Assembly (NCBI GenBank): GCA_030950905.1
Contig: JAUZQQ010000099.1
Span: 1-36,467 of the forward strand
Length of the DNA stretch: 36,467 bases
Source of the DNA: Mariprofundaceae bacterium
Lineage (GTDB): Bacteria; Pseudomonadota; Zetaproteobacteria; Mariprofundales; Mariprofundaceae
Direction: 5' to 3'
The position numbers and the translations under genes are program-made. Shown one piece after another: positions 2,840 to 35,852 of the stretch. The notes under the pieces were generated by a model that was not told where the DNA came from, did not search any database, and saw nothing but the letters and a program-made list of their open reading frames with translations. The stretch's first letter is position 1, and each line of letters opens with the position of its first letter.

Positions 2840-3005
2840 AGCACGCTCCAAAAGGAGGCATACTAAGTTCTGTACACATTTCGTCCACTTTAAGCGAACA
2901 GAAACAGCATAAAGCTCGCCCAAATGGGGATTTTAGCGTAGGTCTTTCTATTCTCGGGCAAGCTCTTAGTCTTTGCCCATTATTATTAATGAGGTTTTGC
3001 TGTTC
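2840..3005. promoter_or_regulatory. Divergent leuC / prfC promoter region
   Basis: This 166-nt gap separates two divergently transcribed genes, so promoters for both must lie here. An imperfect dyad (AGCTCGCCC at 2913-2921 against GGGCAAGCT at 2956-2964) spans the middle and could be an operator or an RNA stem. I did not identify a convincing leucine leader peptide or convincing -35/-10 pairs. Confidence 0.4.
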
Positions 3006-4589
3006 ATGGCTTATTGTTTGGAAATTGAAAAGCGTCGCACGTTTGGTATTATTTCACACCCGGATGCAGGTAAAACCACATTAACAGAAAAGCTGCTGCT
3101 GTTTGGCGGCGCGATTCAAATGGCAGGGGCAGTGAAGGCACGCAAGGCAACGCGTCACGCAACCAGCGATTGGATGAAAATTGAGCAAGAACGCGGTATT
3201 TCTGTGGCTTCCTCAGTGATGAAGTTTAACTACCGTGACTTTGAAATTAACCTGCTCGATACACCTGGCCATCAAGATTTTTCAGAAGATACCTACCGTG
3301 TATTAACGGCGGTTGATTCGGCCATGATGGTGATTGATTCCGCCAAAGGCGTAGAGGTTCAAACTGAAAAATTGATGGAAGTATGTCGCATGCGAAATAC
3401 GCCGATCATTACATTCATCAACAAATTGGATCGTGAAGGCCAATCACCGCTTGATTTATTGGCAGATATTGAAGATAAGTTGCAAATTGAATGTGCGCCA
3501 CTTTCTTGGCCTATCGGTATGGGGAAATCATTTAAAGGCGTGTACAACCGTTACCGTCAAACCTTGCACTTGTTCACCCCCGGTACAGAGGGTGAAGATG
3601 AACAAGCGGTTTTTATTAAAAACTTACAAGACCCTAAGCTTGATGAACTTCTTGGCACACAAGCCGACGAATTGCGTAATGATATTGAATTACTGGAAGG
3701 CGCATCTGACCCTTTTGATCTGGAGTATTTTCTTGCAGGCAGTCAAACCCCTGTGTTTTTTGGGAGTGCGGTTAATAACTTTGGTGTACGCGAATTATTG
3801 GATGCATTTGTTGAATTTGCACCGTCACCAGGCCCCCGTGCCGCAGAACAACGCATGGTTTCACCCGAAGAAAAAAACTTTTCTGCCTTTTGTTTCAAAA
3901 TTCAAGCGAACATGGACCCTGCCCACCGTGATCGTATTGCCTTCTTTCGCATTTGCTCGGGTAAGTTCACCCGTGGCATGAGCGTTCGCCATCATCGTAT
4001 TGGTAAAGATATTAAATTGGCCAAGGCAACGGTGTTTATGGCGCAAGATCGCAGCCACATCGAAGAAGCATGGCCAGGTGATATTATCGGTCTGCACAAC
4101 CACGGCACGATTCGTATTGGCGATACTTTTACCGAAAAAGAAGTGTTGAATTTTACAGGAATCCCCAACTTTGCCCCTGAGATGTTTCGCCGCATTCGTT
4201 TAAAAGACCCCATGAAACGCAAACAATTGCACAAGGGCTTGATTCAATTGTCTGAAGAGGGTGCAGTGCAAGTCTTTCGTACCTTGCTTGGCGGTGATTA
4301 TATTCTTGGGGCAGTCGGTGTATTGCAGTTTGATGTGACCGTTGAGCGATTAAAAACAGAATACCGCGTCGATGCAGAATATACAGGTACAGATTTTCAA
4401 ATTGCCCGTTGGATCACATGTGATGACGTTACGCGCTTGCGTGATTTCACCCGCCTATTTGAGGCAAACTTATCCAAAGATGGTGATGGTTGTTTAACCT
4501 ACCTTGCGCCCAGTCTTTGGAAGCTCAATTATACCATAGAAGAATGGTCTGATATTGGGTTTCATAAAACACGTGAACAAACCCGTTGA
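3006..4589 (+). CDS. prfC: Peptide chain release factor 3 (RF3)
   Basis: RF3 is the translational GTPase that recycles RF1/RF2 after termination. From ATG 3006 the product is 527 residues, essentially the same as E. coli RF3 (529). The P-loop is [10 protein letters not shown] (residues 17-26), followed by the switch [16 protein letters not shown], the NKLD guanine-recognition motif and the long domains II-III with [14 protein letters not shown] and [18 protein letters not shown]. An in-frame TTG at 2973 would add 11 residues without family support. A GAGG at 2991 is a rather distant ribosome-binding site for 3006. The gene is single and divergent from leuC. Confidence 0.97.
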
Positions 4590-5617: not shown

Positions 5618-6412
5618 ATGAAAAAAGTAACAGCAATGACGATTGTAGCAATGGCTCGTCAGGGTAAAAAAACCGTATGGTTAACGGCACATGATGCGAG
5701 CAGTGCATCGCTTGCGTCGCTTGCTGGCGTGGATGTAATCCTCGTTGGCGATTCTTTGGCCATGACGACACTGGGCTATGCGACAACATTGCCTGTATCG
5801 CTGGCTCAAATGATCGCCCATGCCACGGTTGTAGTCGCTGCAACATCGCGACCTTGGGTCGTTTGTGATCTTCCTTTTGGCAGTTATCAAACGTCGCCTG
5901 AACAGGCTTACAGCAGCAGCGTATGTGTCTTGCAACAAAGTGGTTGTGATGCGGTCAAACTAGAAGGCGGTGTACTGATGGCTCCCACTATTCGTTTTTT
6001 ATCCGAACGGGGTATTCCTGTGGTTGCCCATATTGGACTGATGCCGCAATCGGTGAAACAACAAGGTGGTTACCGAAGACAGGGAGAGGATGAATATGCA
6101 GCAGCACGCATCAAAGCCGATGCACAAGCGGTGAGTAATGCAGGCGCATTGGCCGTTGTACTGGAATGTATTCCCGATGCTTTGGCAGCAGAAATCACTG
6201 CCACACTGTCTATTCCTACCGTAGGCATTGGTGCTGGCGCGCAATGCGACGCACAAATTTTGGTCTGGCATGATCTGTTGGGATTGTCTGAAAAAAACCC
6301 ACCCTTTGCCCCAGCCTACTTGAATCTACGACAAACGATTGTTGATGGCATCGCCCAATGGGCAGACGATGTTCGCACGCAACAATTCCCGGGAACAAAA
6401 CCATGCAATTGA
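5618..6412 (+). CDS. panB: 3-methyl-2-oxobutanoate hydroxymethyltransferase (PanB)
   Basis: PanB makes ketopantoate from 2-oxoisovalerate and methylene-tetrahydrofolate, the first committed step to pantothenate and CoA. The 264-residue product has the usual length and an (alpha/beta)8 fold. Metal-binding Asp45 (VGDSLAM), Asp84 (CDLPFGSY) and Glu116 (KLEGG) are present, as is the catalytic glutamate, Glu183 (VLECIP). AAAGG precedes ATG 5618. The last 10 nt overlap the panC start, so the two genes form a coupled operon. Confidence 0.97.
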   Translation: MKKVTAMTIVAMARQGKKTVWLTAHDASSASLASLAGVDVILVGDSLAMTTLGYATTLPVSLAQMIAHATVVVAATSRPWVVCDLPFGSYQTSPEQAYSSSVCVLQQSGCDAVKLEGGVLMAPTIRFLSERGIPVVAHIGLMPQSVKQQGGYRRQGEDEYAAARIKADAQAVSNAGALAVVLECIPDALAAEITATLSIPTVGIGAGAQCDAQILVWHDLLGLSEKNPPFAPAYLNLRQTIVDGIAQWADDVRTQQFPGTKPCN

Positions 6413-7257
6413 TTGAAAAAACCGACGACTTAAGACACGAACTGGCAGCACTGCGCAGCAAGGAGCGCATTGCTTTGATTGCCACCATGGGTTGTTTGCA
6501 TGATGGTCATATCAGTTTGATTCGCAAAGCAAAAAGATTGGCCGATGTGGTGGTGGTGAGTATTTACGTTAATCCACTGCAATTTTCTGCCGAGGAAGAC
6601 CTTGACCGTTATTTGCGCCCTTTTGCCGAAGATACACGGCGTTGTGAAGCCGAGGGGGTGGATCTATTGTTTCACCCTGAATCACTGTTTGCCACGCCAG
6701 AGCCGATGGTTACTTTACATGTGCAAACCCTAGGGGAATGTCTTTGTGGTCGCTTTAGGCCTGGGCATTTTGATGGTATGCTTACCGTGGTCAATGCATT
6801 GTTTAATATTGTAGAACCAGATTTGGCTATATTTGGAGAAAAAGATTGGCAGCAATTAAGCATTGTTCGTCGCATGGTTTATGATTTAAACATGCCTGTT
6901 GCCATTGCCTCTGCTCCTATTATGCGCGAAGAAAATGGTTTGGCGATGAGCAGTAGAAATCAATATTTAACGGTTGCCGAGCGCAAGCGGGCTACTTGTC
7001 TTTTTCAAGCATTAACAGTGATGCGAAAGGCCTGCCTTGCTGGAGAAACCAATTGTGTGCCCTTGTTGGCGATGGCGACCACTGTTTTGCGGAATGAGGG
7101 CTTGGATGCCGAATACCTTGAAATACGCAACAGTAATACATTAAAACCAATATCAACCATAGAAGCTGATGCGCATGCATTTATTGCTGTGCGCATCAAC
7201 AATACACGCTTGATCGACAATATGGCACTTACAAAGACGCTGCAAAAAGGCGAGTAA
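6403..7257 (+). CDS. panC: Pantothenate synthetase (PanC)
   Basis: PanC condenses pantoate and beta-alanine with ATP to give pantothenate. Starting at ATG 6403 gives 284 residues (E. coli PanC is 283) and a normal N-terminus, [11 protein letters not shown]. The frame is open further upstream to 6358, but that is inside panB and unlikely to be used. The HIGH-type nucleotide motif [11 protein letters not shown] is at residues 29-39, FGEKDWQQL follows in the middle, and the KMSKS-like loop appears as MSSRNQYL. panB-panC forms a short operon; panD is not present. Confidence 0.97.
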
Positions 7258-9653: not shown

Positions 9654-9686
9654 CCCTTACCGTATGCCCATGGTGTTTTGCCTGCA

Positions 9687-10481
9687 ATGATAAAGTACAT
9701 TCTATGCTGCTGTTTTTGGTTGCATGCACAAAACATCCACGCCGCGCCATTACAACGTATATTGGCACTCACGCCACACGTATGTGAGATGCTTTATGCC
9801 ATTGGCGCATCGGCCAATATTGTTGGTGCGGTGGATTATTGTAACTACCCTGAAGCAGCAAAAGCATTACCCCGCGTTGGCAATTATCAAGGTATCAATG
9901 TTGAAGCAGCATGGCGTTTAAAACCTGATGTTGCCGTGGTTTTGAGCCGTAGTACCAAAGGCGTTGCGGCATTAGAGGCACTGGGCGTGGATATTGTGGT
10001 TTCCAACCCAAGCAGTTTTGATGGTATATTTCAAAGTTTGTTGCTGTTGGGAACACTTACCAATCACAGCCAAGAAGCCATTGAACTCGTTTCCCAACAA
10101 CGCTTGCGTTTGATAGCGGTGCAACGTAAAGCACGAACAAACCTACGGGTATTTTACGAAGTCTGGCACGCCCCATTGATTGCAGCCGGTGGCACAAGTT
10201 TTATTAATGCTTTGATTGATGATGCAGGCGCTATAAATATATTCTCACAAATAACACTAGAAGCGCCACGCGTTAATGTTGAGGCGGTAATCAGGGGCAA
10301 GCCTGATGTCATTATTATACCTGGGGAAACGCACGATTTGCAAGCCAGGCAATTGTTTTGGGAAAAGTGGTTGGGAAAAAAACACATCCATTTCGTCACC
10401 GTTCCTGCTGACCTGATGCATCGACCAGGGCCACGCTTGATTGAAGGGCTAGAGATATTGCAGCATCTATTGAAAAAATAG
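9687..10481 (+). CDS. btuF: BtuF-like periplasmic substrate-binding protein (cobalamin type)
   Basis: The 264-residue product from ATG 9687 has a signal peptide ending near HAQNIHA and a TroA-like fold: ILALTPHVCEMLYAIGA, then VDYCNYPEAAKALPRVGNY and LKPDVAVV. This order is characteristic of vitamin B12-binding BtuF-type proteins of ABC importers, although heme or iron-chelate binders share the fold. A TTG at 9678 is an alternative start. No permease or ATPase is adjacent. The last 154 nt or so, from 10335 past the stop, are almost identical to 12208-12361, so the present C-terminus may derive from a recombination or insertion event. Confidence 0.78.
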   Translation: MIKYILCCCFWLHAQNIHAAPLQRILALTPHVCEMLYAIGASANIVGAVDYCNYPEAAKALPRVGNYQGINVEAAWRLKPDVAVVLSRSTKGVAALEALGVDIVVSNPSSFDGIFQSLLLLGTLTNHSQEAIELVSQQRLRLIAVQRKARTNLRVFYEVWHAPLIAAGGTSFINALIDDAGAINIFSQITLEAPRVNVEAVIRGKPDVIIIPGETHDLQARQLFWEKWLGKKHIHFVTVPADLMHRPGPRLIEGLEILQHLLKK

Positions 10482-10488
10482 GGTCATT
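10335..10488 (+). repeat. btuF 3'-end direct repeat, copy 1
   Basis: 154 nt covering the last 48 codons, stop and 7 nt beyond match 12208-12361 at all but three positions by eye: A/G in the poly-A run, C/T in the histidine-to-leucine region and T/C in the stop region. In this copy the frame ends in TAG; in the other copy that codon is CAG and the frame runs on to TGA. Upstream of 10335 the similarity falls off but does not vanish at once. Confidence 0.95.
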
Positions 10489-10491
10489 TAA

Positions 10492-10613
10492 TGTAATGGG
10501 GTCAGGCTTCGATTCTGTTGCTTTTGTTGAGTTTTCTATGACCTTGAAAATAGCGTCGGAGTAAAGCTTTATTAAGAGCTGCGTCAAAGGCCGTAGAGCC
10601 GAATCCTGACACT
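10492..10613. repeat. MITE/REP-like element with GTCAGG...TTCG ends
   Basis: This stretch starts TAATGGGGTCAGGCTTCGATT and ends in GCCGAATCCTGACACTG. The two ends are imperfect inverted copies of each other (GGGTCAGGCTTCG against the complement of CGAATCCTGACAC), so the roughly 115-nt block between btuF and the hipA-like gene could fold or behave as a small non-autonomous element. The left end recurs in inverted orientation at 35892-35938. No protein is encoded here. Confidence 0.45.
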
Positions 10614-10679
10614 GTTACTGTTATTACTTTGGTATGAAGTGTAAACTACTTTAAGGGCTGGTGAAGGATGCCGAGAAAT

Positions 10680-11810
10680 CTATAGGTTTATCAACTGCTG
10701 TATTCGCATCTGGATGAACTGCTCAATGATCTCCAGCCGTTTAGCTGGTAGATTATATTTCGGGTGTCGTTTAAAGCGGAAGTTCACCAGCTTGTGCAGG
10801 CGATTTTTCTGCTCTTTGCTGATGATTTCTCTGGCGAATTCCACAAAACCCTGCGATGTGGCCATAAGTCGAGTTTGGGCGTATGCATCAACATCTTCCA
10901 GATCGTCTGCCATGGCATAATTGAATAGCGAAAAGCCATTGTCAAAAATCGGGGCTGGCGCTACAACCCTGTTCGATCCGCTCTCCAGCAGCAGGCCGAA
11001 GTTATTGAAATGCCGATCCTCATTGCAGATCACCGCATCGAAAATCAACATATCCACCAGTGATTGATCGTAATCATCCCCCAACTTTCGGTAATAATCC
11101 ATCACCGCCCGCCAACCACCATTGTTCACGACTCTTCCGGCTGGAACATAGGAAAGTTCCAAACTGGTAAACAACGGGCAGGTCGAAAAGAGCTGTTTTT
11201 TCCACCGCCTCAGGTTGTAAGGTGTACAGTTCAATCCCATCGCTTTCGCTACCTGAGCGGCATAAAACTCCGAATAAGGTTCGTTGCCCGTATTGGCTGC
11301 TCCTGTTGATCCGGCTTTGTAGAGATAGAGCGTTCCCTGTTCCCGCCGCCAACATTTGGCGAGCATGCCCCCAGTGGTCAACTCGGGCGTGGAGATAAAA
11401 CCATGGCGTTTGGTCTCGCCATAACCAGTATAGGCGATGAACGAGAGAATGCGACTAATCCGGTTTTCATAGAGATTAAACTGGCGAAACGACCCTTCAA
11501 ATCCCTGCTCAACAATCCAGTAACAATCGTTAACCGACAACCCCTTGCAAACATCAATGATCCCCTTGGTATCGCCCACATTCAACCCAAGTTTCGCCAG
11601 AAGGTTTTGCACAAACAAACGATTGCCCGGAATCACCCGCCGTTTAAGCCAAGTCAGCAGCCCTTTCTCGCTCAACTCAAGATCAATGGGCAGCAGTGGA
11701 TGATGTGTTTCGTTGATCGACACAATTTGAGCCGACAACCCTTCAATCACGTCGGATGCCAATTCAAAGGTGATTAGCTCATAATCAAACTGTTTTAAAA
11801 TATAACGCAT
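10680..11810 (-). CDS. HipA-like Ser/Thr kinase, orphan
   Basis: The 376-residue protein carries the kinase features of HipA/CtkA-type toxins: a P-loop-side lysine in LYLYKAGS (Lys165), the catalytic loop NEDRHFNNFG (263-272) with Asp265 and Asn270, and the metal-binding DNG (290-292). The N-terminal half, with LKRRVIPGNRLFVQ and IIDVCKGLSVNDCYWIV, matches a widespread family of stand-alone HipA-domain proteins. HipA kinases phosphorylate host targets such as glutamyl-tRNA synthetase and cause growth arrest. The substrate here is unknown. No hipB-like antitoxin gene is adjacent: upstream lies only a decayed transposase. AAGG about 8-11 nt before ATG 11810 is a modest SD. Confidence 0.8.
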   Translation of the reverse strand: MRYILKQFDYELITFELASDVIEGLSAQIVSINETHHPLLPIDLELSEKGLLTWLKRRVIPGNRLFVQNLLAKLGLNVGDTKGIIDVCKGLSVNDCYWIVEQGFEGSFRQFNLYENRISRILSFIAYTGYGETKRHGFISTPELTTGGMLAKCWRREQGTLYLYKAGSTGAANTGNEPYSEFYAAQVAKAMGLNCTPYNLRRWKKQLFSTCPLFTSLELSYVPAGRVVNNGGWRAVMDYYRKLGDDYDQSLVDMLIFDAVICNEDRHFNNFGLLLESGSNRVVAPAPIFDNGFSLFNYAMADDLEDVDAYAQTRLMATSQGFVEFAREIISKEQKNRLHKLVNFRFKRHPKYNLPAKRLEIIEQFIQMRIQQLINL

Positions 11811-11849
11811 ATCAACAACCTTAGAGACTGGAATCTTGAAGCTGAATCG

Positions 11850-12034
11850 ACATTAGGTGCAATACAAAGGGCCTTTTGATGTGTCATGCTAGGTAGACAA
11901 GCCTCACCGGAAACCTTTTCGGCACCACGCAGAAAAAATTGCCGAAATCCAATACATGTATTAATAATACCAAAGACTGGTTCGACTGTCGTCTTTCTCT
12001 GGGCATAAAGTTGTCTTCCATTTCCATCATGCAA
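11850..12034 (-). pseudogene. IS1182-type transposase C-terminal remnant
   Basis: The minus strand encodes GRQLYAQRKTTVEPVFG and GFRQFFLRGAEKVSGE, the conserved C-terminal segment of IS1182-group transposases. After that the match shifts to another frame (LVYLA, stop, HIKRPFVLHL), showing a frameshift and a nonsense mutation. The N-terminal two thirds are absent. The remnant lies directly upstream of the hipA-like gene and marks the inserted segment as mobile-element debris. Confidence 0.75.
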
Positions 12035-12207
12035 ACGCTGAGTTCATCGCTGTAAATATCGTAGTTTACATTTTACTTTACTCTTTATAATGCAGGACTA
12101 TAAAGATAGTGCTATGCGGAAACCAATATTGCCAGCACAGGAACAGTCGCCTCCATCCTTCTCATCAAGACGGAAGGCTTAACGTAATTCTACCCGAGGA
12201 AGCGCGT
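12035..12207. other. Short non-coding junction inside the btuF-icd insert
   Basis: Between the transposase remnant and the second btuF tail I find no convincing gene. Towards its right end (about 12170-12207) there is weaker similarity to the btuF sequence preceding 10335, in the segment encoding NVILPEEARDLQ versus VIIIPGETHDLQ. The left part has AT-rich motifs such as TATAATGC near 12088 that could act as a promoter. Confidence 0.4.
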
Positions 12208-12363
12208 GATTTGCAAGCCAGGCAATTGTTTTGGGAAAAGTGGTTGGGAAAAAAGCACATCCATTTCGTCACCGTTCCTGCTGACCTGATGCATCGACCA
12301 GGGCCACGCTTGATTGAAGGGCTAGAGATATTGCAGCATTTATTGAAAAAACAGGGTCATTGA
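12208..12363 (+). pseudogene. Detached btuF 3' fragment (direct repeat copy 2)
   Basis: The DNA is almost identical to 10335-10488 and encodes DLQARQLFWEKWLGKK... through LLKKQGH, ending at TGA 12361-12363. It has no upstream gene body: the frame can be extended back to 12109 only through sequence unrelated to a binding protein. It is either the original end of btuF displaced by an insertion or a tail carried in by the inserted element. Confidence 0.85.
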
Positions 12364-12440
12364 CGTATCATCGTTTGTTCATTGGAAAAAAAGGTGCAGA
12401 CTTTGCCCTGCATTGGAACAATTATAAATGGAGAACCATC

Positions 12441-14183
12441 ATGCCCTTTGAAAAAATAACGCCCCCAACCATGGGTGAAAAAATAACCATGGGCAATGAT
12501 GGCAAATTATCCGTGCCTAAAAAACCCATTGTTACCTTTATTGAAGGTGATGGAACGGGGCCTGATATTTGGCGTGCTGCACAGCGTGTTTTGAATGCCG
12601 CCGTAAAAAAAGCTTACAACGATGAACGGGAAATCGCATGGATGGAAGTTTTTGCGGGTGAAAAAGCTTGGAATCTTTATGGTCAAAGCGATGATGCTTG
12701 GTTGCCTGAAGAAACTTTACAGGCATTTCGTGATTATTTGATTGGCATTAAAGGCCCATTAACGACACCCATTGGTGGTGGTATCACATCATTAAATGTT
12801 GCATTGCGCCAAAAACTGGACTTGTATACGTGTTTGCGTCCTGTGAAATATTTTAAAGGCGTACCTTCACCCGTAAAAAAACCAGAAGATGTGGATATGG
12901 TTATTTTTCGTGAAAACTCAGAAGATATTTATGCTGGTATCGAGTGGGCTAACGGATCAGACGAAGTCAAAAAACTCATTGCTTTTTTACAAGAAGAAAT
13001 GGGTGTCAGCAAAATTCGTTTCCCTGAAACATCGGGTATTGGCATCAAACCTGTATCGGAAGAAGGAAGCAAACGTTTGGTTCGTGCGGCTATTTTGTAT
13101 GCCCTGGCGAACAAGCGGAAATCAATCACCTTGGTTCACAAGGGAAATATCATGAAGTTTACAGAAGGTGCATTCATGCGCTGGGGTTATGAGGTCGCCA
13201 AAGAAGAATTTGATGCAAAAGAAATAGATGGTGGGCCATGGTGTACATTGCCCAATGGCTTGTTGATCAAAGATGCCATTGCAGATATTACCTTGCAGCA
13301 AGTACTAACGAGACCTACAGATTTTGATATCATCGCTACATTGAATTTAAATGGCGATTATATCTCAGATGCTTTGGCTGCACAGATTGGCGGTATTGGT
13401 ATTGCACCGGGCGCGAATATAAATTACCTCAGTGGTCATGCTATTTTTGAAGCAACCCATGGCACAGCACCAAAATATGCAAATAAAGATATGGTCAACC
13501 CTTCATCGGTAATTCTTTCTGGCGAAATGATGCTTCGTTACATGGGCTGGAGCGAAGCCGCTGATCTCATCTTAAAAGGTATCAATGGTGCTATTCAAGC
13601 CAAAACAGTGACCTATGACTTTCATCGTTTGATGGATGATGCCATTAAACTTTCAACATCAGACTTTGGCGACGCTGTGATTCATCATATGGAAGATGAA
13701 TCGTTGGATGATGAAGCAGCCAACCATTACGATGAATTGGCCGACCGTGCGCGCGATATTTTTGAGTCTGGTGCAGAAAAAACCCAAGAGTTTGTGCAAT
13801 CAGCCGTAGAGACAGCACGAGAACAATTAACCACAGCAGGAACATTTACCGAAGAACAAGGGCAACGTTTAAAATCATTTCTTGAAGATGATATGTTCCG
13901 CATGGCAGAATCAATGCGCAACGAGGCAAAGTCGCGGTTAAATCCATCTCGCTTAACCGTGGGTGCAATGGCCTCACTTAGTGCTGTGATGAAAGCTGCT
14001 GGATCAGCGATCAATGATTTGGCGAGCAAAGCGGAGCAAGGCTTGCATTGTCGTTCGGGTGAAATAACGAGTGCTGGAACACTGACATGCATCCAATGCA
14101 ACAAAGAAATGCACTTTAAAAAAACAGGTCGCATTCCACCTTGCACAGAATGCCATCACACGGAGTTTCGCAAGTCCTATTGA
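12441..14183 (+). CDS. icd: NADP-type isocitrate dehydrogenase fused to a YbeL/DUF1451 zinc-ribbon domain
   Basis: Residues 1 to about 417 are a complete Icd, which oxidises isocitrate to 2-oxoglutarate in the TCA cycle: [11 protein letters not shown], the substrate loop [20 protein letters not shown] with the regulatory-type Ser117, [14 protein letters not shown] and [11 protein letters not shown], ending where E. coli Icd ends (DAVIHHM). The frame then continues for about 160 residues: an acidic linker, a helical segment, and a C-terminal zinc ribbon with CIQC and CTEC pairs and GRIPPC, matching the layout of E. coli YbeL. ATG 12441 is chosen because GGAGA lies 7 nt upstream and the N-terminus fits. 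The frame is open back to 12360. The product is 580 residues, against about 416 for ordinary Icd. Confidence 0.93.
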
Positions 14184-26219: not shown

Positions 26220-27815
26220 TTGAATACCTCCCTTGCCCTTCATTGTGATTATTTAATCATTGGTAGCGGTGCTGCTGGCTTGCTTGCGGCGCAACACCTT
26301 GCCGAACATGGTGCTGTGATACTCATCAACAAGGGTGAATTTTCCGATTCCAATACCTACTATGCGCAAGGAGGTATTGCAGGTGTGGCAGACACGAGCG
26401 ATTCTACCGAGAACCACATTCAAGACACATTGATCGCAGGTGCAGGGCTGTGCCATGAAAATACCGTGCGCAAGGTTGCCGAGGCAGGTGGTGCAATGGT
26501 TCGGCATTTGCAAGCCTTGGGAACACCCTTTGACCATGATGAGCAAGGACTGCACCTCACCAAAGAGGGTGGGCATAGCCATCGTCGTGTTGCCCATGTA
26601 CAAGATGCAACGGGTCGTGCTATCAGCGAAACCCTTTACCACCATGTGCAAAACGATCAACGAATCTCCTGTCTTAGCCAGCATATTGCCATTGATTTAA
26701 TCACCAGTCGTCGCTTGGGACGGCATCATGGTCATAACCGTTGTTTGGGTGCTTACCTACTAAATCCAGAAGGGGTGATTATTACCGTAGCAGCCAAAGC
26801 AACGGTGCTGGCAACAGGCGGTGCTGGTAAAGTGTATAGGTACACCTCCAATCCTCACGTTGCTACGGGTGATGGTATCGCCATGGCATGGCGTGCGGGC
26901 TGTGCTGTGATGAATATGGAGTTTATTCAATTTCATCCCACTTGTTTGTTTCATGCAACAGCACCCACGATGCTCTTAAGCGAGGCATTAAGGGGTGAAG
27001 GTGCGCATATTGTTGATGAACAAGGCCATCGTTTTGTTTTTAACTACGATCCACGCGGCGAGATGGCATCGCGTGATATTGTTGCCCGTGCCATTGATCA
27101 TGAGATGAAAAAACAAGGCAAGGACTGCATGTACCTTGATGCCAGACCCTTGGGGGTAAAAAAAATCCTTAGGCATTTTCCCAATATTCATCAACGCCTA
27201 TTGGATGTATCCATCGACATGCGTCAATCCCCCATCCCAATTGTTCCAGCAGCCCATTATATTTGTGGCGGCGTGCAAACAGACTTGGCAGGGCGCACAT
27301 CGGTGAATGGTTTGTATGTTATTGGCGAATCAGCTTGCACCGGGCTGCATGGAGCCAACCGTTTGGCCAGCAACTCTTTGCTGGAATGTATGGTGATGGC
27401 GGATGCTTGTTGCCACCATGTCAAAAATGAGCCTGTACCACCGTTTCACATGCATTTACCATGTTGGGATGATTCAGGTACAATGCCTGAAATGGATCGT
27501 GTGCAAATCAAACAAAACTGGGATGAGATTCGCGCCACCATGTCCAATTACGTTGGTATTGTACGTTCGCGTCATCTATTGCGCAATGCGCGTCGTCGCT
27601 TGGCACTGATTCGAGAAGAAATATCCAGCTACTACTGGCAACACCCGTTAAGCCGTGATTTGATTGAATTGCGCAATTTATGTTTGATTGCCGAATTAAT
27701 CGTCCGTTCTGCACAACAAAGAAAAGAATCACGCGGCCTCCATTATTCCACAGACTTTCCGAACACCAACAGCAAGGAAGTCCATGATACCATCATTAAA
27801 CCAGAGGTTTTGTGA
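26220..27815 (+). CDS. nadB: L-aspartate oxidase (NadB)
   Basis: NadB is the FAD enzyme that turns aspartate into iminoaspartate, the first step of de novo NAD synthesis with NadA. The 531-residue product has the dinucleotide-binding GSGAAGLLAAQ near residue 15, TYYAQGGIAGV, the substrate segment GGHSHRRVAHVQDATGRAI, EALRGEGAHIVDEQGHRF, DPRGEMASRDIVARAI and the late FAD motif GLHGANRLASNSLLE. The first codon is TTG 26220, 15 nt after lptB, and no good SD is visible. The stop lies 16 nt upstream of the hsdR start. Confidence 0.96.
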   Translation: MNTSLALHCDYLIIGSGAAGLLAAQHLAEHGAVILINKGEFSDSNTYYAQGGIAGVADTSDSTENHIQDTLIAGAGLCHENTVRKVAEAGGAMVRHLQALGTPFDHDEQGLHLTKEGGHSHRRVAHVQDATGRAISETLYHHVQNDQRISCLSQHIAIDLITSRRLGRHHGHNRCLGAYLLNPEGVIITVAAKATVLATGGAGKVYRYTSNPHVATGDGIAMAWRAGCAVMNMEFIQFHPTCLFHATAPTMLLSEALRGEGAHIVDEQGHRFVFNYDPRGEMASRDIVARAIDHEMKKQGKDCMYLDARPLGVKKILRHFPNIHQRLLDVSIDMRQSPIPIVPAAHYICGGVQTDLAGRTSVNGLYVIGESACTGLHGANRLASNSLLECMVMADACCHHVKNEPVPPFHMHLPCWDDSGTMPEMDRVQIKQNWDEIRATMSNYVGIVRSRHLLRNARRRLALIREEISSYYWQHPLSRDLIELRNLCLIAELIVRSAQQRKESRGLHYSTDFPNTNSKEVHDTIIKPEVL

Positions 27816-27831
27816 GGGCTGGGGGAATAAT

Positions 27832-30800
27832 ATGGTTAAGCGTAACAAGGGTAAAACTGTTGATATGACAAGAGAAAATAAGATTGAACAAAGCCTGATC
27901 GACAAGCTAGTCGATCTTAAATACTCCCACCGCGAAGATATTCGAGACAGGGATACGCTTGAGAAAAATTTTCGCGATAAATTTGAATCACTCAACCGAG
28001 TCAAACTAACCGATGCTGAGTTTGCTCGCCTTCGCGATGAAGTTATCAATGCTGATGTGTTCGCCGCCGCAAAAACGCTGCGCGAGCGTAATACATTTTC
28101 GCGTGAAGATGGCACGCCGTTGCAATACACACTGGTCAATATCAAAGACTGGTGCAAAAACGATTTCGAAGTCATCAACCAATTACGCATCAATACTGAC
28201 AATAGCCATCACCGTTATGATGTAATTTTGCTCATCAACGGTTTACCTTTGGTACAAATAGAGCTCAAATCGTTGGCCATCACCCCGCGCCGTGCCATGG
28301 AGCAAATCGTCGACTATAAAAATGACCCTGGCAATGGCTATACCAATACGCTGCTCTGCTTCATGCAGCTTTTTATTGTCAGTAACCGCGCCAATACGTA
28401 TTACTTCTCCAATAACCATAATCAACATTTCAGTTTCAATGCCGACGAACGCTTTTTACCTGTTTATCAACTTGCCAGTGAAGATAATAAAAAAATCACC
28501 CATCTGGATGACTTTGCCGACATGTTCCTCGCCAAGTGCACACTGGGGCAAATGATCAGCCGCTACATGGTCTTGGTGGCTAGTGAGCAAAAACTGATGA
28601 TCATGCGCCCATACCAAATCTATGCGGTGAAGGCGATTATTGATTGTATTCATCAAAACCGTGGCAATGGCTATATCTGGCACACCACGGGCAGTGGTAA
28701 AACGCTCACCTCGTTCAAAGCTTCTACATTGCTAAAAGACAACCCAGACATTGATAAATGCCTGTTTGTGGTCGACCGAAAAGACCTCGACCGCCAAACC
28801 CGCGAAGAGTTCAATAAATTTCAGGAGGGCTGTGTTGAAGAAAATACCAATACAGGATCCTTGGTGCGGCGCATGCTATCAGACGATTATGCCGATAAGG
28901 TGATTGTCACGACCATTCAGAAGCTGGGCATCGCGCTGGATGAAAACAGCAAGCGCAACCAACAACAGCAACAAAAAGGCAAGCAGAGCTACAAAGAGCG
29001 GCTGGAGCCTTTACGCAAGCAACGCATCGTCTTTATTTTTGACGAATGTCATCGCTCCCAGTTTGGCGATAACCACAAGGCCATTAAAGCATTCTTCCCT
29101 AATGCGCAGTTGTTTGGTTTTACCGGCACACCTATTTTTGACGATAACGCCACCTACAAAAAAATTGATGGCACGGTAGGTTCTTTTAAAACGACGGAAG
29201 ATATCTTCGAAAAACAGTTGCACGCCTACACCATCACCAACGCCATTGATGACCGCAACGTATTACGTTTTCATATCGATTACTTTGGCGAAAAGCCGAA
29301 AGACAACGAAGGTAAAAAGAGCAAGGCGAAACCCAAGTTACCTGCGCCTGAATCCATCGTAAAAGAGATATTGAAAAAACACGATGCTGTCACCAACCAG
29401 CGCCGTTTTAACGCGCTACTGGCGACGGCTTCCATTAACAATGCCATTGCGTTCTACGAACTATTCAAGAAAGTGCAGGCGCAGAGACAGGCCGCAGATG
29501 ACGACTATCAGCCCTTAAATATTGTTTGTGTATTCTCGCCACCCACGCAAACCTTGGCCAAAGAGAGCGACCATAAAAATGGCAAAAACGTTGCAGACAT
29601 TGAACAGCTGCAAGAGGATCTTCTCCAGGAAAAAGCCGATAATCAGGAAGCGCCGGAAGAGAAAAAAGCTGCCCTAATGGCCATGATTGCAGACTATAAT
29701 AGCCAATACAGCACCAATCACAGCATTAACGCGTTCGATCTCTATTATCAGGATCTGCAGCAGCGCATCAAAGATCAGAAATACAGCAATGCCGATTACC
29801 CGCGCAAAAATAAAATCGACGTGGTGATCGTGGTGGATATGCTGCTTACAGGTTTTGATTCCAAATACCTCAACACCCTCTATGTGGATAAAAACCTCAA
29901 ACACCACGGTCTGATTCAAGCCTTTTCACGCACCAACCGTGTATTAAACGACACCAAGCCCCATGGTAAAATTATGGATTTCCGTTATCAGGAAGCTGCC
30001 GTGGACGAAGCCATTGCGATGTTTTCCGGTCAGGATAAATCCCGCGCGAAAGAGATATGGCTGGTAGACCCTGCGCCAGAAGTCATTAAGCAGTTGGACG
30101 GGGCAGTTCACCAACTACAAACCTTTATGGATACACAAGGCCTTGCTTGCACACCAGAGCAGGTGAATAACCTCCAGGGTGATGATGCACGCGGTCAGTT
30201 TATCAACCACTTCAAAGAGGTGCAGCGCCTTAAAACGCAGCTTGATCAATACACAGATTTAAGCGAAGAGCAGAGCGAGGGTGTCAACGCACTCATGGAT
30301 GAGGATCAACTTCGCGGCTTCCGTGGCGTGTATCTGGAAACGGCGCAACGGCTTAAAATACAGCAAGGTAAAAGCGGCGATGATAGCCCCGTGCAACAGC
30401 TGGATTTTGAGCTGGTGCTGTTTGCCTCGGCGGTGATTGATTATGACTATATCATGGGATTGATCGCCAAAACCACCGACGAAAAAGCCAGCGCGCAAAA
30501 AATGAGCCGTATGCAGCTGATTAAGCTGATTAGTTCCAGTGCCAATCTCATGGATGAACGTGACGACATTATTGATTACATCAGCACCCTGCCAGCAGGT
30601 GAAAGCCTGAATGAAAAAACCATTCATAAAGGGTACGAGAAATTTAAAGCCGAAAAGTTAGCCAAGGAACTCTCCGCTATGGCTGAAAAACATGGGCTCA
30701 CGTGTGAATCCCTGCAAAGCTTTGTAGATGTCATTATGAACCGCATGATTTTTGATGGTGAACAATTGACGGACTTGATGGAACCTCTGAAACTGGGATG

Positions 30801-30906
30801 GAAGGCTAGACGCGTAGCAGAACTGGCTTTGATGGAAGAGCTTGTGCCGCTACTCAATAAATTAGCTCAAGGGCACGATATTTCGGGGTTATCTGCGTAT
30901 GAATAA
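27832..30906 (+). CDS. hsdR: Type I restriction endonuclease subunit R (HsdR)
   Basis: HsdR is the motor and nuclease of a type I restriction system: it translocates DNA with ATP and cuts unmodified DNA. Starting at ATG 27832, preceded by GGGGGA, gives 1024 residues. The PD-(D/E)xK nuclease site is Asp130, Glu144 and Lys146 (QIELK). Walker A is TTGSGKT (285-291), the DECH box is at 404-407, and FGFTGTPIF and QAFSRTNRVL are further helicase motifs. An in-frame ATG at 27784 lies inside nadB and is unlikely. The stop overlaps the hsdS start by 8 nt. Confidence 0.96.
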   Translation: MVKRNKGKTVDMTRENKIEQSLIDKLVDLKYSHREDIRDRDTLEKNFRDKFESLNRVKLTDAEFARLRDEVINADVFAAAKTLRERNTFSREDGTPLQYTLVNIKDWCKNDFEVINQLRINTDNSHHRYDVILLINGLPLVQIELKSLAITPRRAMEQIVDYKNDPGNGYTNTLLCFMQLFIVSNRANTYYFSNNHNQHFSFNADERFLPVYQLASEDNKKITHLDDFADMFLAKCTLGQMISRYMVLVASEQKLMIMRPYQIYAVKAIIDCIHQNRGNGYIWHTTGSGKTLTSFKASTLLKDNPDIDKCLFVVDRKDLDRQTREEFNKFQEGCVEENTNTGSLVRRMLSDDYADKVIVTTIQKLGIALDENSKRNQQQQQKGKQSYKERLEPLRKQRIVFIFDECHRSQFGDNHKAIKAFFPNAQLFGFTGTPIFDDNATYKKIDGTVGSFKTTEDIFEKQLHAYTITNAIDDRNVLRFHIDYFGEKPKDNEGKKSKAKPKLPAPESIVKEILKKHDAVTNQRRFNALLATASINNAIAFYELFKKVQAQRQAADDDYQPLNIVCVFSPPTQTLAKESDHKNGKNVADIEQLQEDLLQEKADNQEAPEEKKAALMAMIADYNSQYSTNHSINAFDLYYQDLQQRIKDQKYSNADYPRKNKIDVVIVVDMLLTGFDSKYLNTLYVDKNLKHHGLIQAFSRTNRVLNDTKPHGKIMDFRYQEAAVDEAIAMFSGQDKSRAKEIWLVDPAPEVIKQLDGAVHQLQTFMDTQGLACTPEQVNNLQGDDARGQFINHFKEVQRLKTQLDQYTDLSEEQSEGVNALMDEDQLRGFRGVYLETAQRLKIQQGKSGDDSPVQQLDFELVLFASAVIDYDYIMGLIAKTTDEKASAQKMSRMQLIKLISSSANLMDERDDIIDYISTLPAGESLNEKTIHKGYEKFKAEKLAKELSAMAEKHGLTCESLQSFVDVIMNRMIFDGEQLTDLMEPLKLGWKARRVAELALMEELVPLLNKLAQGHDISGLSAYE

Positions 30907-32230
30907 ACAGACTAAAAAAACACTCGTGCCTAAACTGCGTTTTCCTAAGTTTCGGGAGGCGGGGGAGTGGAATAATGAGCTACTAGAAGCCTTATATTCA
31001 TTTAAAGTAACAAATTCATTTTCGAGAGAAAAGCTGAATTACGAAAATGGTTTGGTGAAAAATATACATTACGGAGATATACACACTAAATTTTCCACAT
31101 TATTTAATATCGAACAAGCAAATGTTCCATTTATAAATACATCAGAGTCCTTAGATAAGATCAAACAAGAATGCTTCTGCGAAGAAGGAGATATGATTTT
31201 TGCTGACGCTTCAGAAGATTTAGGTGATGTAGGAAAAAGCATTGAGATTGTTCATTTAAATGATGAAAGACTTCTATCTGGTTTACACACTCTTTTAGCC
31301 CGACAAAAAGACGAAAAACTAATAGTTGGTTTTGGCGGATATTTATTTAAGTCAAACAGAATTAGGGAACAGATTAAAAGAGAATCGCAAGGAGCTAAAG
31401 TCCTTGGAGTATCGGCAGGAAGATTATCAAATATTAAAGTTATTTATCCTTTAAAAAAGAATGAACAACAAAAAATCGCTGATTGTCTTTCTTCCATCGA
31501 CGAACTGATCACCGCGCACACCCAAAAACACGATGCACTCAAAGCCCATAAAAAAAGCCTGATGCAGCAGCTATTTCCTACCGAAGGTGAAACCGTTCCC
31601 AAGCTTCGCTTTCCTGAATTTCAGGATGCGGGGGAGTGGATCGAAACAAAGCTTGGGAAAGTCACCAGTTTTTCTTCAGGAGGAACCCCCTCAAAAGGTG
31701 TACCTGCATACTGGGGAGGCGATATTCCGTGGATAAGCGCTTCTTCAATGCATAGTACAAGCATTAGAGATTCTGATCATAGTATTACGGAATATGCAGT
31801 AAATGAAGGTGCTCGAACAGCCGAAAAAGGAACGTTACTACTATTGGTTCGTGGAAGTATGCTACACAAAAGGATTCCCATTGGAATTGCAGAGAAAGAC
31901 GTAGCATACAACCAGGATGTTAAAGCCCTGATACTTAAAAAAAATATTCTTGGAAAACTCTTGATGTATTTGTTAATTGCTTCTGAATGGGGGCTTTTAA
32001 ATGCTGTTACTAAAACAGGCATAGGGGCAGGGAAACTTGATACAAATGATCTAAATAAGTTCCCAGTTTATTTTCCTTCTGATAAAGATGAACAACAAAA
32101 AATCACCGACTGTCTATCTTCCATCGACGAATTGATCGCCGCACAATCCCAGAAAATCGAATCCCTTAAAGCCCATAAAAAAGGGCTGATGCAGCAGCTT
32201 TTCCCCACCGTTGATGAGGTGAATGTATGA
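30899..32230 (+). CDS. hsdS: Type I restriction-modification specificity subunit (HsdS)
   Basis: HsdS determines the bipartite target sequence and joins HsdM and HsdR. The 443-residue protein has two target-recognition domains (about 25-190 and 245-400). Each is introduced by PKLRFPxFxxAGEW and followed by a conserved coiled-coil region, EQQKIxDCLSSIDELI ... AHKKxLMQQLFPT. This internal duplication is visible at DNA level (30926-30970 with 31595-31639, and 31463-31583 with 32090-32210). The first domain's DNA is clearly more AT-rich than its surroundings, typical of exchanged recognition domains. No frameshift is present. Confidence 0.95.
   Translation: MNKQTKKTLVPKLRFPKFREAGEWNNELLEALYSFKVTNSFSREKLNYENGLVKNIHYGDIHTKFSTLFNIEQANVPFINTSESLDKIKQECFCEEGDMIFADASEDLGDVGKSIEIVHLNDERLLSGLHTLLARQKDEKLIVGFGGYLFKSNRIREQIKRESQGAKVLGVSAGRLSNIKVIYPLKKNEQQKIADCLSSIDELITAHTQKHDALKAHKKSLMQQLFPTEGETVPKLRFPEFQDAGEWIETKLGKVTSFSSGGTPSKGVPAYWGGDIPWISASSMHSTSIRDSDHSITEYAVNEGARTAEKGTLLLLVRGSMLHKRIPIGIAEKDVAYNQDVKALILKKNILGKLLMYLLIASEWGLLNAVTKTGIGAGKLDTNDLNKFPVYFPSDKDEQQKITDCLSSIDELIAAQSQKIESLKAHKKGLMQQLFPTVDEVNV
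31463..31583 (+). repeat. hsdS conserved-region repeat, copy 1
   Basis: This 121-nt segment encodes the central coiled coil of HsdS and is a diverged direct repeat of 32090-32210, with the same length and no gaps. Such paired regions allow recombination that changes the specificity domains. Confidence 0.8.
32090..32210 (+). repeat. hsdS conserved-region repeat, copy 2
   Basis: The C-terminal coiled coil of HsdS is the second copy of the 121-nt repeat at 31463-31583. Confidence 0.8.
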
Positions 32231-32266
32231 TATTATCAGCCATGAAATACCGAAAGGAGTTGTGCC

Positions 32267-33136
32267 ATGGATAAACAATTGCAAACCCTGCAACACAAGC
32301 TCGAAGCGGTTGTACAACGTGCCGATGCGGAAGGTATTGAGTTCTGGTTTGCCCGCGATCTGCAAGCCCCTTTGGGTTATGCTCGTTGGGAGAATTTCCA
32401 AACGGCGATTCAACGCGGCATGGAATCTTGCGAGACCACGGGAAATAAAGCTTCGGATCATTTTCGTGGCGTCACGAAAATGATCGAGCTGGGTAAGGGT
32501 GGCAAACGTGAGGTTCATGACTTTATGCTCACCCGCTATGCCTGTTACCTGATTGCCCAGAATGGTGATCCACGTAAACCTGAGATTGCTTTTGCGCAAA
32601 GCTATTTTGCTGTACAAACTCGCAAGCAGGAGTTGATAGAAGAGCGTATGCGCCTGCAAGCGCGTATGGAAGCACGAGACAGGCTGAAGAAGTCCGAAAA
32701 ATCCCTGTCGCAAAATATTTTCGAGCGTGGAGTAGATAACTCTGGTTTTGGGCGTATTCGTTCACAAGGCGATAAAGCTTTGTTTGGAGGCAATACCACG
32801 CAGACCATGAAGGACAGATACGGTATCGTTAAAAGTCGCCCTCTGGCTGATTTTTTACCCACCTTAACCATTGCCGCCAAAAATCTTGCTACCGAGATGA
32901 CTAATCACAATGTGGAAGAAGCTAATTTACAGGGTGAGCGAGCAATCACCGATGAACATGTACAAAATAATGTCAGTGTGCGCGATATGCTGGGACAGCG
33001 AGGGATTAAACCAGAAAATCTGGCTGCTGAAGAGGATTTAAAAAAACTGGAACGCCGGGTTAAATCGGAAGAAAAAAAGCTGGCAAAAACCACCAAAAGT
33101 TTACCGCCACGTAGCGACGAGTCCGCTAACAAATGA
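32267..33136 (+). CDS. dinD: DinD-like DNA damage-inducible protein
   Basis: The 289-residue protein matches DinD by its N-terminal segment WFARDLQAPLGYARWENFQT and by FMLTRYACYLIAQNGDPRKPEIAFAQ in two blocks, RSQGDKALFGGNTTQTMKDR, and a charged, helical C-terminus. E. coli DinD (274 residues) is LexA-regulated and inhibits RecA filament activity in vitro. AAAGGAG precedes ATG 32267. It is inserted between hsdS and prrC, and its stop overlaps the prrC start by 4 nt, so it is a co-translated member of the restriction operon. I see no SOS box immediately upstream. Confidence 0.88.
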   Translation: MDKQLQTLQHKLEAVVQRADAEGIEFWFARDLQAPLGYARWENFQTAIQRGMESCETTGNKASDHFRGVTKMIELGKGGKREVHDFMLTRYACYLIAQNGDPRKPEIAFAQSYFAVQTRKQELIEERMRLQARMEARDRLKKSEKSLSQNIFERGVDNSGFGRIRSQGDKALFGGNTTQTMKDRYGIVKSRPLADFLPTLTIAAKNLATEMTNHNVEEANLQGERAITDEHVQNNVSVRDMLGQRGIKPENLAAEEDLKKLERRVKSEEKKLAKTTKSLPPRSDESANK

Positions 33137-34248
33137 ACAACCTATTACCCTTTGCCAGCCTGGATGACGTCACAACCCATTTCCGCGATAAACTGAATGA
33201 TAAAAAATATCTATTACTGTTTGCCTACAACGGCACAGGCAAGACACGGTTATCCATGGCATTTAAGGAAGCGGGTAAAAGGGAGAACGAACGAGACACC
33301 CTCTATTTTAATGCCTTCACCGAAGACCTGTTCAGCTGGGATAATGACCTGGATCATGATGCTCAAAGGGTATTGAAGCTCAATTCGAACTCTCGTTTTT
33401 TTGCTGGTATTCAAGAGCTGGAAATGGATACCCGTATCCGTCCATTGTTGCAGCGTTATGCAGACTTTGACTTTAAAATTGATACAGATAACTGGACAGT
33501 AAGTTTTGAGCGTGAAGTCAATCAGGGTGAACATAGCGTGACAGTTGCACACATTAAAATCTCTCGCGGCGAAGAAAATATTTTTATCTGGTGTTTTTTT
33601 CTTGCCGTCGCGCAATTGGCGATTGATGCGAGCAGTGAAGAAGAAGCCTACGCTTGGGTGAAATACATTTACATTGACGACCCTATCTCCTCACTGGATG
33701 ACAATAATGCCATTGCTGTCGCCAGCCATTTGGCGCAAATGCTAAAAAATCAAAGCCGTGTGAAAACGGTCATCTCTTCTCACCATACCCTGTTTTTTAA
33801 TGTCATGTGCAACGAGCTAAGCAGAGCAGTAAAGTACTTCTTAAGCAAAGATGAAGCAGGGGGTGCTTATACATTGAGAGATACAAGTGACACGCCTTTT
33901 TTTCATCATGTTTCCCTCATCAAAGATCTGCATAAAGCGGTAGAGTCGGGTGATTTGTATACCTATCATTTCAATATATTACGTAATATTTTAGAAAAAA
34001 CCGCGACCTTTCACGGCTTTAAAAACTTCTCCGCCTGTATCAAGCAGGGTCATGATGATCCTGATGGTATTGTATATGCGAGAATGGTTAACATATTAAG
34101 CCATGGCAACTATTCACTGTTTGAACCTACGGAAATGATCAATGAGAACAAACAGTACTTTAGAAAAATATTGCGCGATTTTATGAACAATTACCGATTT
34201 AACCCCGAACTGTTTCCTGAACAGATTGAAGAGGCTGCGCAACCATGA
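33133..34248 (+). CDS. prrC: PrrC-like anticodon nuclease
   Basis: The 371-residue protein opens with the PrrC-type P-loop segment FAYNGTGKTRLSMAFKEAGK and continues with LYFNAFTEDLFSWDNDLDHD, both strongly reminiscent of E. coli PrrC. The ABC-like Walker B is YIDDPISSLDD (180-190), followed by SSHH (216-219). The C-terminal ribonuclease part has Arg284, Glu288 and His324, with spacing comparable to the Arg-Glu-His triad reported for PrrC. PrrC is held silent by the type I complex and cuts tRNA-Lys at the wobble position when a phage inhibitor disables restriction. ATGA overlaps dinD upstream and hsdM downstream. Confidence 0.9.
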   Translation: MNNLLPFASLDDVTTHFRDKLNDKKYLLLFAYNGTGKTRLSMAFKEAGKRENERDTLYFNAFTEDLFSWDNDLDHDAQRVLKLNSNSRFFAGIQELEMDTRIRPLLQRYADFDFKIDTDNWTVSFEREVNQGEHSVTVAHIKISRGEENIFIWCFFLAVAQLAIDASSEEEAYAWVKYIYIDDPISSLDDNNAIAVASHLAQMLKNQSRVKTVISSHHTLFFNVMCNELSRAVKYFLSKDEAGGAYTLRDTSDTPFFHHVSLIKDLHKAVESGDLYTYHFNILRNILEKTATFHGFKNFSACIKQGHDDPDGIVYARMVNILSHGNYSLFEPTEMINENKQYFRKILRDFMNNYRFNPELFPEQIEEAAQP

Positions 34249-35852
34249 CCGAAGAAAATCAAAAAGAATTGGGCAAAACCCTTTGGGGCATCGCTAACGA
34301 TTTGCGCGGTGCGATGAACGCAGACGATTTTCGTGACTATATGCTGTCGTTCCTGTTCTTACGTTATTTATCTGATAACTACGAAACATCTGCAAAAAAA
34401 GAGTTGGGCGTAGATTATCCAACATTGAAACCCAATGATAAACGTGCGCCTTTAAGATTATGGTATGAAGACAACGCCGAGGATATCGTTGAATTTGAAA
34501 AACAGATGCGACGTAAGGTGCATTATGTAATTGAGCCGCAGCATCTGTGGAGCAGTATTGCAGAGCTGGCCAGAACGCAAAACGATACGTTATTGGACAC
34601 CTTGCAACAGGGATTTAAGTATATTGAAAACAAATCCTTTGAAAGTACGTTTCAGGGGCTGTTCTCAGAAATCAATCTTGATTCTGAAAAGCTGGGTAAA
34701 AAATACGCTGATCGCAATGCCACGTTGTGTACCATCATTAGCAAAATCGCCGAAGGTATTGCGAAATTTTCTTCAAACAGCGATGTGTTGGGCGATGCCT
34801 ATGAATACCTGATTGGCCAGTTTGCCGCAGGATCGGGTAAAAAAGCCGGTGAGTTTTATACACCGCAACAAATATCGACGATACTGTCTAAAATTGTCAC
34901 GCTTGATAGTCAGGAGCCCGCAACAGGCCCAAAGAAAAAACTCAATAAGGTGCTTGATTTTGCCAGTGGCTCCGGTTCGTTGTTGCTCAATGTTCGCAAA
35001 CAGCTTGGCTCACACGGGATTGGTAAAATCTACGGCCAGGAAAAAAATATTACGACGTTCAACCTAGCGCGTATGAACATGCTATTGCACGGGGTAATAG
35101 ATTCGGAATTCGAAATTCACCACGGTGATTCGCTGCTCAATGATTGGGCTTTACTGAATGAAATGAACCCAGCCAAAAAACTGGAGTGCGATGCTGTGGT
35201 GGCTAATCCACCGTTTAGCTACCGCTGGGAACCGACGGAAGCATTGGGTGAAGATTTTCGTTTTAAAAGCTATGGCCTTGCGCCCAAATCAGCAGCGGAC
35301 TTTGCTTTCTTATTGCATGGTTTCCATTTTCTAAGCGATGAAGGAACCATGGCTATCATTCTGCCGCATGGTGTTCTGTTCCGTGGCGGAGCCGAATCAC
35401 GTATTCGCACCAAGCTCTTAAAAGATGGCAATATTGATACGGTGATTGGCTTGCCTGCTAACCTGTTTTTCTCAACTGGTATCCCCGTATGTATTCTGAT
35501 TTTGAAAAAGTGTAAAAAATACGATGATGTTTTATTTATCAATGCCAGCGAACACTTCGAGAAAGCTAAACGTCAAAACAACTTGCTTGATGCCCATGTT
35601 GAAAAAATCGTCGACACGTATCAATTCCGTCAAGAAGAAGATCGTTATGCAAGACGTGTTTCCATGGAAGAGATTGAGCAGAATGATTTTAACTTAAATA
35701 TTTCTCGCTATATAAGCACTGCCAAGCCTGAGCCAAAGATCGACTTGCAAGTAGTCAATGCTGAGCTGATTGATTGGGAAAATAAAATTATTGAAGCTAC
35801 CAGCAGGCACAATGCGTTTCTGCATGAGCTTGGGTTACCACCTCTACCATAG
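34245..35852 (+). CDS. hsdM: Type I modification methyltransferase subunit (HsdM)
   Basis: HsdM is the N6-adenine methyltransferase subunit that protects host sites and, with HsdS, forms the modification core. The 535-residue product begins with the usual N-terminal helical domain (LWGIANDLRGAMNADDFRDY, then LSFLFLRYLSDNYE), has the SAM-binding motif DFASGSGSLLLN (about residues 238-249), GDSLLND, and the catalytic NPPF (about 321-324). It is the last gene of the operon; having modification after restriction implies that one transcript carries both. The start overlaps the prrC stop (ATGA). Confidence 0.96.
   Translation: MTEENQKELGKTLWGIANDLRGAMNADDFRDYMLSFLFLRYLSDNYETSAKKELGVDYPTLKPNDKRAPLRLWYEDNAEDIVEFEKQMRRKVHYVIEPQHLWSSIAELARTQNDTLLDTLQQGFKYIENKSFESTFQGLFSEINLDSEKLGKKYADRNATLCTIISKIAEGIAKFSSNSDVLGDAYEYLIGQFAAGSGKKAGEFYTPQQISTILSKIVTLDSQEPATGPKKKLNKVLDFASGSGSLLLNVRKQLGSHGIGKIYGQEKNITTFNLARMNMLLHGVIDSEFEIHHGDSLLNDWALLNEMNPAKKLECDAVVANPPFSYRWEPTEALGEDFRFKSYGLAPKSAADFAFLLHGFHFLSDEGTMAIILPHGVLFRGGAESRIRTKLLKDGNIDTVIGLPANLFFSTGIPVCILILKKCKKYDDVLFINASEHFEKAKRQNNLLDAHVEKIVDTYQFRQEEDRYARRVSMEEIEQNDFNLNISRYISTAKPEPKIDLQVVNAELIDWENKIIEATSRHNAFLHELGLPPLP

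Follow-up and report, generated by a model that had tools for sequence, protein, structure and literature searches.

A direct repeat of the btuF 3' end around layered mobile DNA and a HipA/CtkA-like kinase in a Mariprofundaceae bacterium

Introduction

The e14 prophage at icd of Escherichia coli K-12 is accompanied by a 165-bp icdC duplication (PMC11148124), and att identity blocks at icd can be up to about 250 bp long (PMC10111431). At e14, as at the locus described here, the 3' end of a protein-coding gene is directly duplicated around foreign DNA and the upstream gene remains open. Unlike this locus, the e14 prophage is 15 kb long, encodes its own integrase and has a known empty site. The present locus instead has a 1.7-kb gap without an integrase, separate mobile pieces, and btuF codons of diverged sequence before the far tail. 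It lies in a 36,467-nt stretch of contig JAUZQQ010000099.1 of a Mariprofundaceae bacterium (assembly GCA_030950905.1), and this whole stretch is referred to as the window.

Part of the gap resembles a mobile insertion cassette. Mobile insertion cassettes and MITEs consist of IS ends with passenger genes or with none. The IS-ended unit of the window shares with the cassettes its inverted IS-like ends around a passenger and its lack of a working transposase of its own. It differs from them in that no target-site duplication was seen and no parent IS was matched.

The passenger is a kinase similar to CtkA of Helicobacter pylori (PDB 3akj) and the HipA-family kinases in its fold, its catalytic motifs and its stand-alone position without HipB. 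It differs from CtkA in sequence (about 17-18% identity in the fold match) and has an extra N-terminal region; the window kinase is described here from its sequence and predicted fold.

Results

The direct repeat of the btuF 3' end

The btuF gene of the window, a vitamin-B12-uptake gene, matches Peripla_BP_2 (1e-23) and the BtuF model PRK03379 (1.9e-36, under the curated cut-off of that model). Its closest btuF found, in the same genus, encodes a protein with 58% identity. The gene ends within the first copy of a 154-nt direct repeat (Table 1), and its frame is still open despite the tail duplication. The two copies are spaced 1873 nt apart and differ at three positions, and an ungapped extension of the repeat covers 175 nt at 95% identity. 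Two of the differences are synonymous (AAA in copy 1 and AAG in copy 2; CTA in copy 1 and TTA in copy 2). The third is TAG in copy 1 and CAG in copy 2, which places the copy 1 stop three codons earlier. The block length fits the known att identity blocks at icd. A diversity-generating retroelement was considered and rejected, as the three differences show no adenine bias and the insert ORFs scanned contain no reverse-transcriptase domain. An Rfam search gave no match.

Table 1. Positions of the features at the btuF locus, numbered from the first base of the window.
Feature	Position	Strand	Description
btuF, full length	9678..10481	+	267 aa; ends in tail copy 1, stop TAG
btuF tail copy 1	10335..10488	+	154 nt; homology reaches the first base of the copy 2 btuF stop and no further
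MITE-like element	10493..10618	.	126 nt; imperfect 34-nt terminal inverted repeats; fold z -2.3
Left IS-like end AAGTGTAAACTACTTT	10637..10652	+	followed by ...GAAGGATGCC
Orphan HipA/CtkA-like kinase	about 10680..11810	-	376 aa, intact; PF07804; CtkA by profile and fold
IS1182-family transposase C-terminus remnant	11890..12061	-	in-frame TGA
Right, inverted IS-like end AAATGTAAACTACGAT	12058..12073	-	3 mismatches to the left end
Diverged btuF codons VILPEEAR	12184..12207	+	prolong copy 2 upstream in the btuF frame
btuF tail copy 2	12208..12361	+	154 nt; continues to QGH-stop
Probable btuC-start vestige	12360..12383	+	TTGA overlap; MTYHRLFI vs MTQHRALL

Downstream of copy 2, similarity to copy 1 ceases abruptly. 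The block itself is 151/154 identical; just upstream of copy 2 the value is 16/24, and farther out it is at background level (34% over 100-134 nt). The boundary at 12207/12208 is sharp (8/24 against 3/154 mismatches, or 67% against 98% identity; Fisher P = 4e-6) and is conversion-like. The 24 nt before it were scored against a btuF profile built from 29 btuF relatives (family genes). This stretch is the highest-scoring of the 72,886 24-mers on both strands of the window, and it outscores the corresponding part of copy 1. Because of these btuF codons and the drop from 151/154 to 16/24 identity, copy 2 reads as the 3'-terminal 178 nt of a second btuF, with the first 24 nt diverged and the rest nearly identical to the first.

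Copy 2 also has an ancestral-looking end, since its C-terminal length equals the aligned length of the same-genus BtuF proteins (L006 and L007). Its stop overlaps a TTG (TTGA). Many family members have a 4-nt overlap between btuF and the next gene, and in the same genus that next gene is btuC. The frame from the TTG begins MTYHRLFI, compared with MTQHRALL in the BtuC of genome G003. This vestige is only 8 codons long, and 2 of 939 NTGA windows score as well, the vestige included. These features suggest that copy 2 may keep an old btuF/btuC junction. The homology of copy 1 ends exactly at the btuF/btuC boundary. In both of the same-genus genomes that carry btuF, the gene precedes btuC, and an ABC ATPase gene also follows it. 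The window's own assembly, 82% complete, yielded no BtuC-type permease; the gene could lie in the remaining 18%.

An earlier note, made from the window alone, had described near-identical 154-nt btuF tails; their coordinates, direct orientation and exactly three mismatches were all reproduced. The weak similarity that it saw before copy 2 holds up: the stretch consists of in-frame btuF codons. Its suggestion that one tail comes from a diverged homologue agrees with a stretch that is btuF-like yet only 16/24 identical to copy 1. As to the native tail, which the note proposed to identify by alignment with btuF of relatives, copy 2 looks like the resident 3' end, with its full-length C-terminus.

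The space between the tails

This gap is layered: a 126-nt inverted-repeat element is followed by a 1.44-kb unit, and with the mobile pieces taken out the tails would be only ~130 nt apart. One end of the MITE-like element recurs at 35887-35938 (minus), just after hsdM. The exact sequence TAATGGGGTCAG has no match elsewhere in the window's own assembly besides the MITE-like copies of the window.

The 1.44-kb unit is bounded by inverted ends of 13-16 nt, for which no parent IS was found. The AAGTGTAAACTACTTT-type end has just two matches in the window, one on each side of hipA. Sister genome G002 has these ends too (L130 and L131), once as an inverted pair, with GAAGGATGCC following them. No clear target-site duplication flanks the unit, and the left end has no match in the plasmid collection. 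As hipA lies within its own inverted-repeat unit, the insert is layered, and the idea that hipA marks a single element is not supported. The decayed transposase seen by the earlier note is the C-terminus of an IS1182-family protein (about 11890-12061). It covers only model residues 420-474 of 488 and is not a full transposase. Integrase, HTH (HipB) and reverse-transcriptase domains are absent from the insert ORFs scanned, in line with the same note's statement that no integrase is present. No excisionase or phage gene was found in the insert, and no plasmid gene was found between the tails.

The recurring end at 35887-35938 is a second, partial MITE-like copy directly 3' of a type I restriction methylase gene. 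The type I restriction system spans 27784-35852 (hsdR, hsdS and hsdM); genes for a Bro-N protein and an AAA_13 ATPase lie between hsdS and hsdM.

The kinase

The kinase ORF (10683-11810, minus strand) matches HipA_C (PF07804, 4e-9), as expected from the HipA-like kinase reported earlier. The motifs NEDRHxxNFG and IFDNG are conserved. In an alignment of 17 homologues the catalytic motifs are invariant, including N263, D265, R266, H267, N270 and D290. CtkA is the closest solved relative by sequence profile. A fold search with the structure model (pLDDT 80, with a weak stretch at residues 118-148) returns CtkA first and then HipA. The kinase and catalytic motifs of a HipBA toxin-antitoxin system are thus present, but the insert ORFs scanned contain no HTH domain of an adjacent HipB antitoxin; directly upstream of the kinase gene lies the IS1182 remnant. 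On its conserved motifs and modelled fold, the protein probably acts as a stand-alone Ser/Thr kinase.

Homologues with 66-69% identity are found in Spirochaetes, Beggiatoa-like bacteria and Desulfobacterota. In the phylum-wide search only 1 of 399 genomes carries the kinase, namely the window's own; the other 398 have no homologue at E 1e-30. Judged by this distribution, the kinase is a horizontally acquired orphan. Homologues occur in 15 plasmid and 12 phage records, all at ≤49% identity. In viral contigs, HipA relatives are reached by profile only and no btuF relatives were found. Bracketing repeats are absent from the five viral HipA loci tested and from the five plasmid or phage stretches examined.

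Other kinase loci with bracketing repeats

Long, near-identical direct repeats bracket the kinase homologue at 3 of 35 genome loci (L036, L058 and L068); by our own rough estimate, roughly 1% is expected from other repeat pairs. At L036 (Candidatus Tharpella), 113 nt of the 3' end of a DUF1329 gene are repeated at 582-694 and 2924-3036 with 97% identity, ending at the stop. Between these tails lie a PemK toxin gene, a HipA-like kinase gene and a RadC fragment. Kinase gene and target gene converge both here (DUF1329) and in the window (btuF). At L058, a duplicate of the 5'-terminal 322 nt of hsdR (3465-3786 and 6134-6455) stands upstream of an insert with a RhuM-like gene and a HipA-like kinase. 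The L068 repeat is apparently a dispersed non-coding repeat. L036 alone therefore matches the window layout, and bracketing repeats were rejected as a general rule for this kinase. Given the small numbers and the rough control, the shared layout is a lead and not a claim.

At a Spirochaetaceae contig (L035:4257-5916), two tandem tyrosine-recombinase-like genes lie downstream of the kinase homologue, the first of them confirmed by Pfam.

Gene neighbourhood and the search for an empty site

All seven family genomes examined have icd downstream of aspS, and at least six of them have a small lipoprotein gene in between. In the window's own genus, aspS is located elsewhere, away from icd. In G002, the TPR and carbonic anhydrase genes, which lie 3' of icd in the window, have other genes before them. 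No counterpart of the M48 gene that precedes btuF in the window was found in the three same-genus genomes. This, together with the unlinked btuF and icd of the relatives examined, indicates that the M48-btuF-icd order is lineage-specific. The separation of icd from its family-wide neighbour aspS likewise indicates that the junctions at the window locus are lineage-specific rearrangements.

No empty site was found among the family genomes, all of other species, that were searched for btuF, icd and hipA-flank DNA. The earlier note had envisaged strains with btuF directly 5' of icd; in the relatives examined the two genes are unlinked.

The icd gene of the window (12441-14183) encodes a C-terminal extension of ~160 aa with a Cys-rich, zinc-ribbon-like end. 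This extension is common to the family, and the gene is linked to aspS in relatives outside the genus.

Discussion

The locus is best read as a decayed partial btuF duplication with a homogenised tail and accreted mobile DNA, and not as a self-integrating element (probability roughly 0.48). Copy 2 would be the 178-nt 3' relic of a diverged second btuF that formerly stood before btuC; the relic itself is present in the window, and its former extent is inferred. The 5' part of this second btuF and btuC would since have been lost. The last 154 nt of both copies may have been homogenised by homologous recombination or gene conversion, as the abrupt step from 67% to 98% implies. The 126-nt element would then have settled in the gap between the tails. 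The 1.44-kb unit, carrying the CtkA/HipA-type kinase and the IS1182 remnant, would also have accumulated there. The sharp boundary with btuF codons upstream of it requires two diverged btuF copies and a conversion-type event.

At slightly below even odds, duplication, homogenisation and accretion together cover all observations with the fewest missing parts. The family-like end with a btuC-like overlap is in copy 2 and not in copy 1. The insert consists of separate mobile pieces, and the IS-like ends that face each other around hipA recur in G002. The kinase was found in one of the 399 genomes of the phylum searched and is 66-69% identical to proteins of other phyla. Neither an integrase nor an HTH domain was detected, BtuC was not found in the assembly, and icd has no aspS neighbour. 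Against these points, an ancestor with two btuF genes and the conversion step were not observed in the genomes compared. The btuC vestige is short, and BtuC may sit in the unassembled part of the genome. The boundary at the stop codon is also explained by an element that imports a replacement tail, and the IS-like unit has no clear target-site duplication.

The main rival, which is doubtful, is a degenerate integrative element of the e14/icd type. Its integrase would have cut inside btuF ~154 nt before the stop. Copy 1 would be the element's replacement tail, and copy 2 would be the native tail, moved to the far end. Most of the element, its integrase included, would later have been lost, and the break between btuF and btuC would have led to the loss of btuC. 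The direct repeat of a gene tail ending at the stop is congruent with this, with a length in the known range (PMC11148124, PMC10111431). So are the open btuF, the native-like 3' end at copy 2, the foreign cargo between the tails and the similar, independent layout at L036. The absence of integrase, excisionase and phage genes argues against it, as do the cargo in its own inverted-repeat unit and the absence of an empty site in the family genomes searched. A plain attP arm would not be expected to carry the btuF codons found before copy 2, although capture of the tail from a diverged homologue would account for them. Checked as a gene-3'-end integrative element, the locus has the identity block and the open upstream frame and has no integrase domain in the insert ORFs scanned. 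The integrative element proposed earlier is upheld for the tail duplication, the foreign cargo, one tail from a diverged homologue, the block end at the stop and the native-like copy 2. It is not upheld for an integrase, an empty site or hipA as the mark of a single element.

A RecA-type (Campbell) single crossover of circular DNA, carrying a related bacterium's btuF 3' fragment and the cargo, is unlikely. It needs no integrase to give the same anatomy, and it predicts that the sequence before copy 2 is a diverged arm and that copy 1 is followed by unrelated sequence. However, the 154-nt near-identity beside a 67% arm still demands a later conversion, the gap holds no plasmid gene, and the left IS-like end is unmatched in the plasmid collection.

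A simple tandem duplication of the btuF tail with mobile DNA inserted later, which the earlier note had also put forward, is disfavoured and very unlikely. It agrees with the direct orientation and with the mobile pieces in the gap. A fresh duplicate would be as similar in its first 24 nt as in the rest, yet these 24 nt are 67% identical and the rest 98%. The duplicated unit must also have ended exactly at the btuF/btuC boundary, where the homology of copy 1 stops. An assembly artefact joining strain variants is hardly credible: the genome is in 114 contigs and MAG-derived loci dominate the comparison, but the copies differ at three sites, the flanks are distinct, and the 1.7 kb between the tails has no run of N and resembles neither flank.

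A broader idea is that small, integrase-less islands carry orphan kinases of the CtkA/HipA type into the 3' ends of unrelated protein genes time and again, leaving a 100-160-nt tail duplicate that ends at the stop. This is highly improbable on the loci compared here. If L036 does share its mechanism with the window, the two would represent an undescribed way for orphan kinases to settle at gene ends.

With the decayed duplication and accretion as the preferred reading, the locus is a genuine scar of gene duplication or insertion, of a fairly ordinary sort, that shows no trace of a complete integrating element. On that reading, a partial gene duplication into which small mobile DNA has moved can produce a gene-tail repeat, usually the sign of an integrated element. 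The locus also documents an intact orphan kinase of the CtkA/HipA type moving between phyla.
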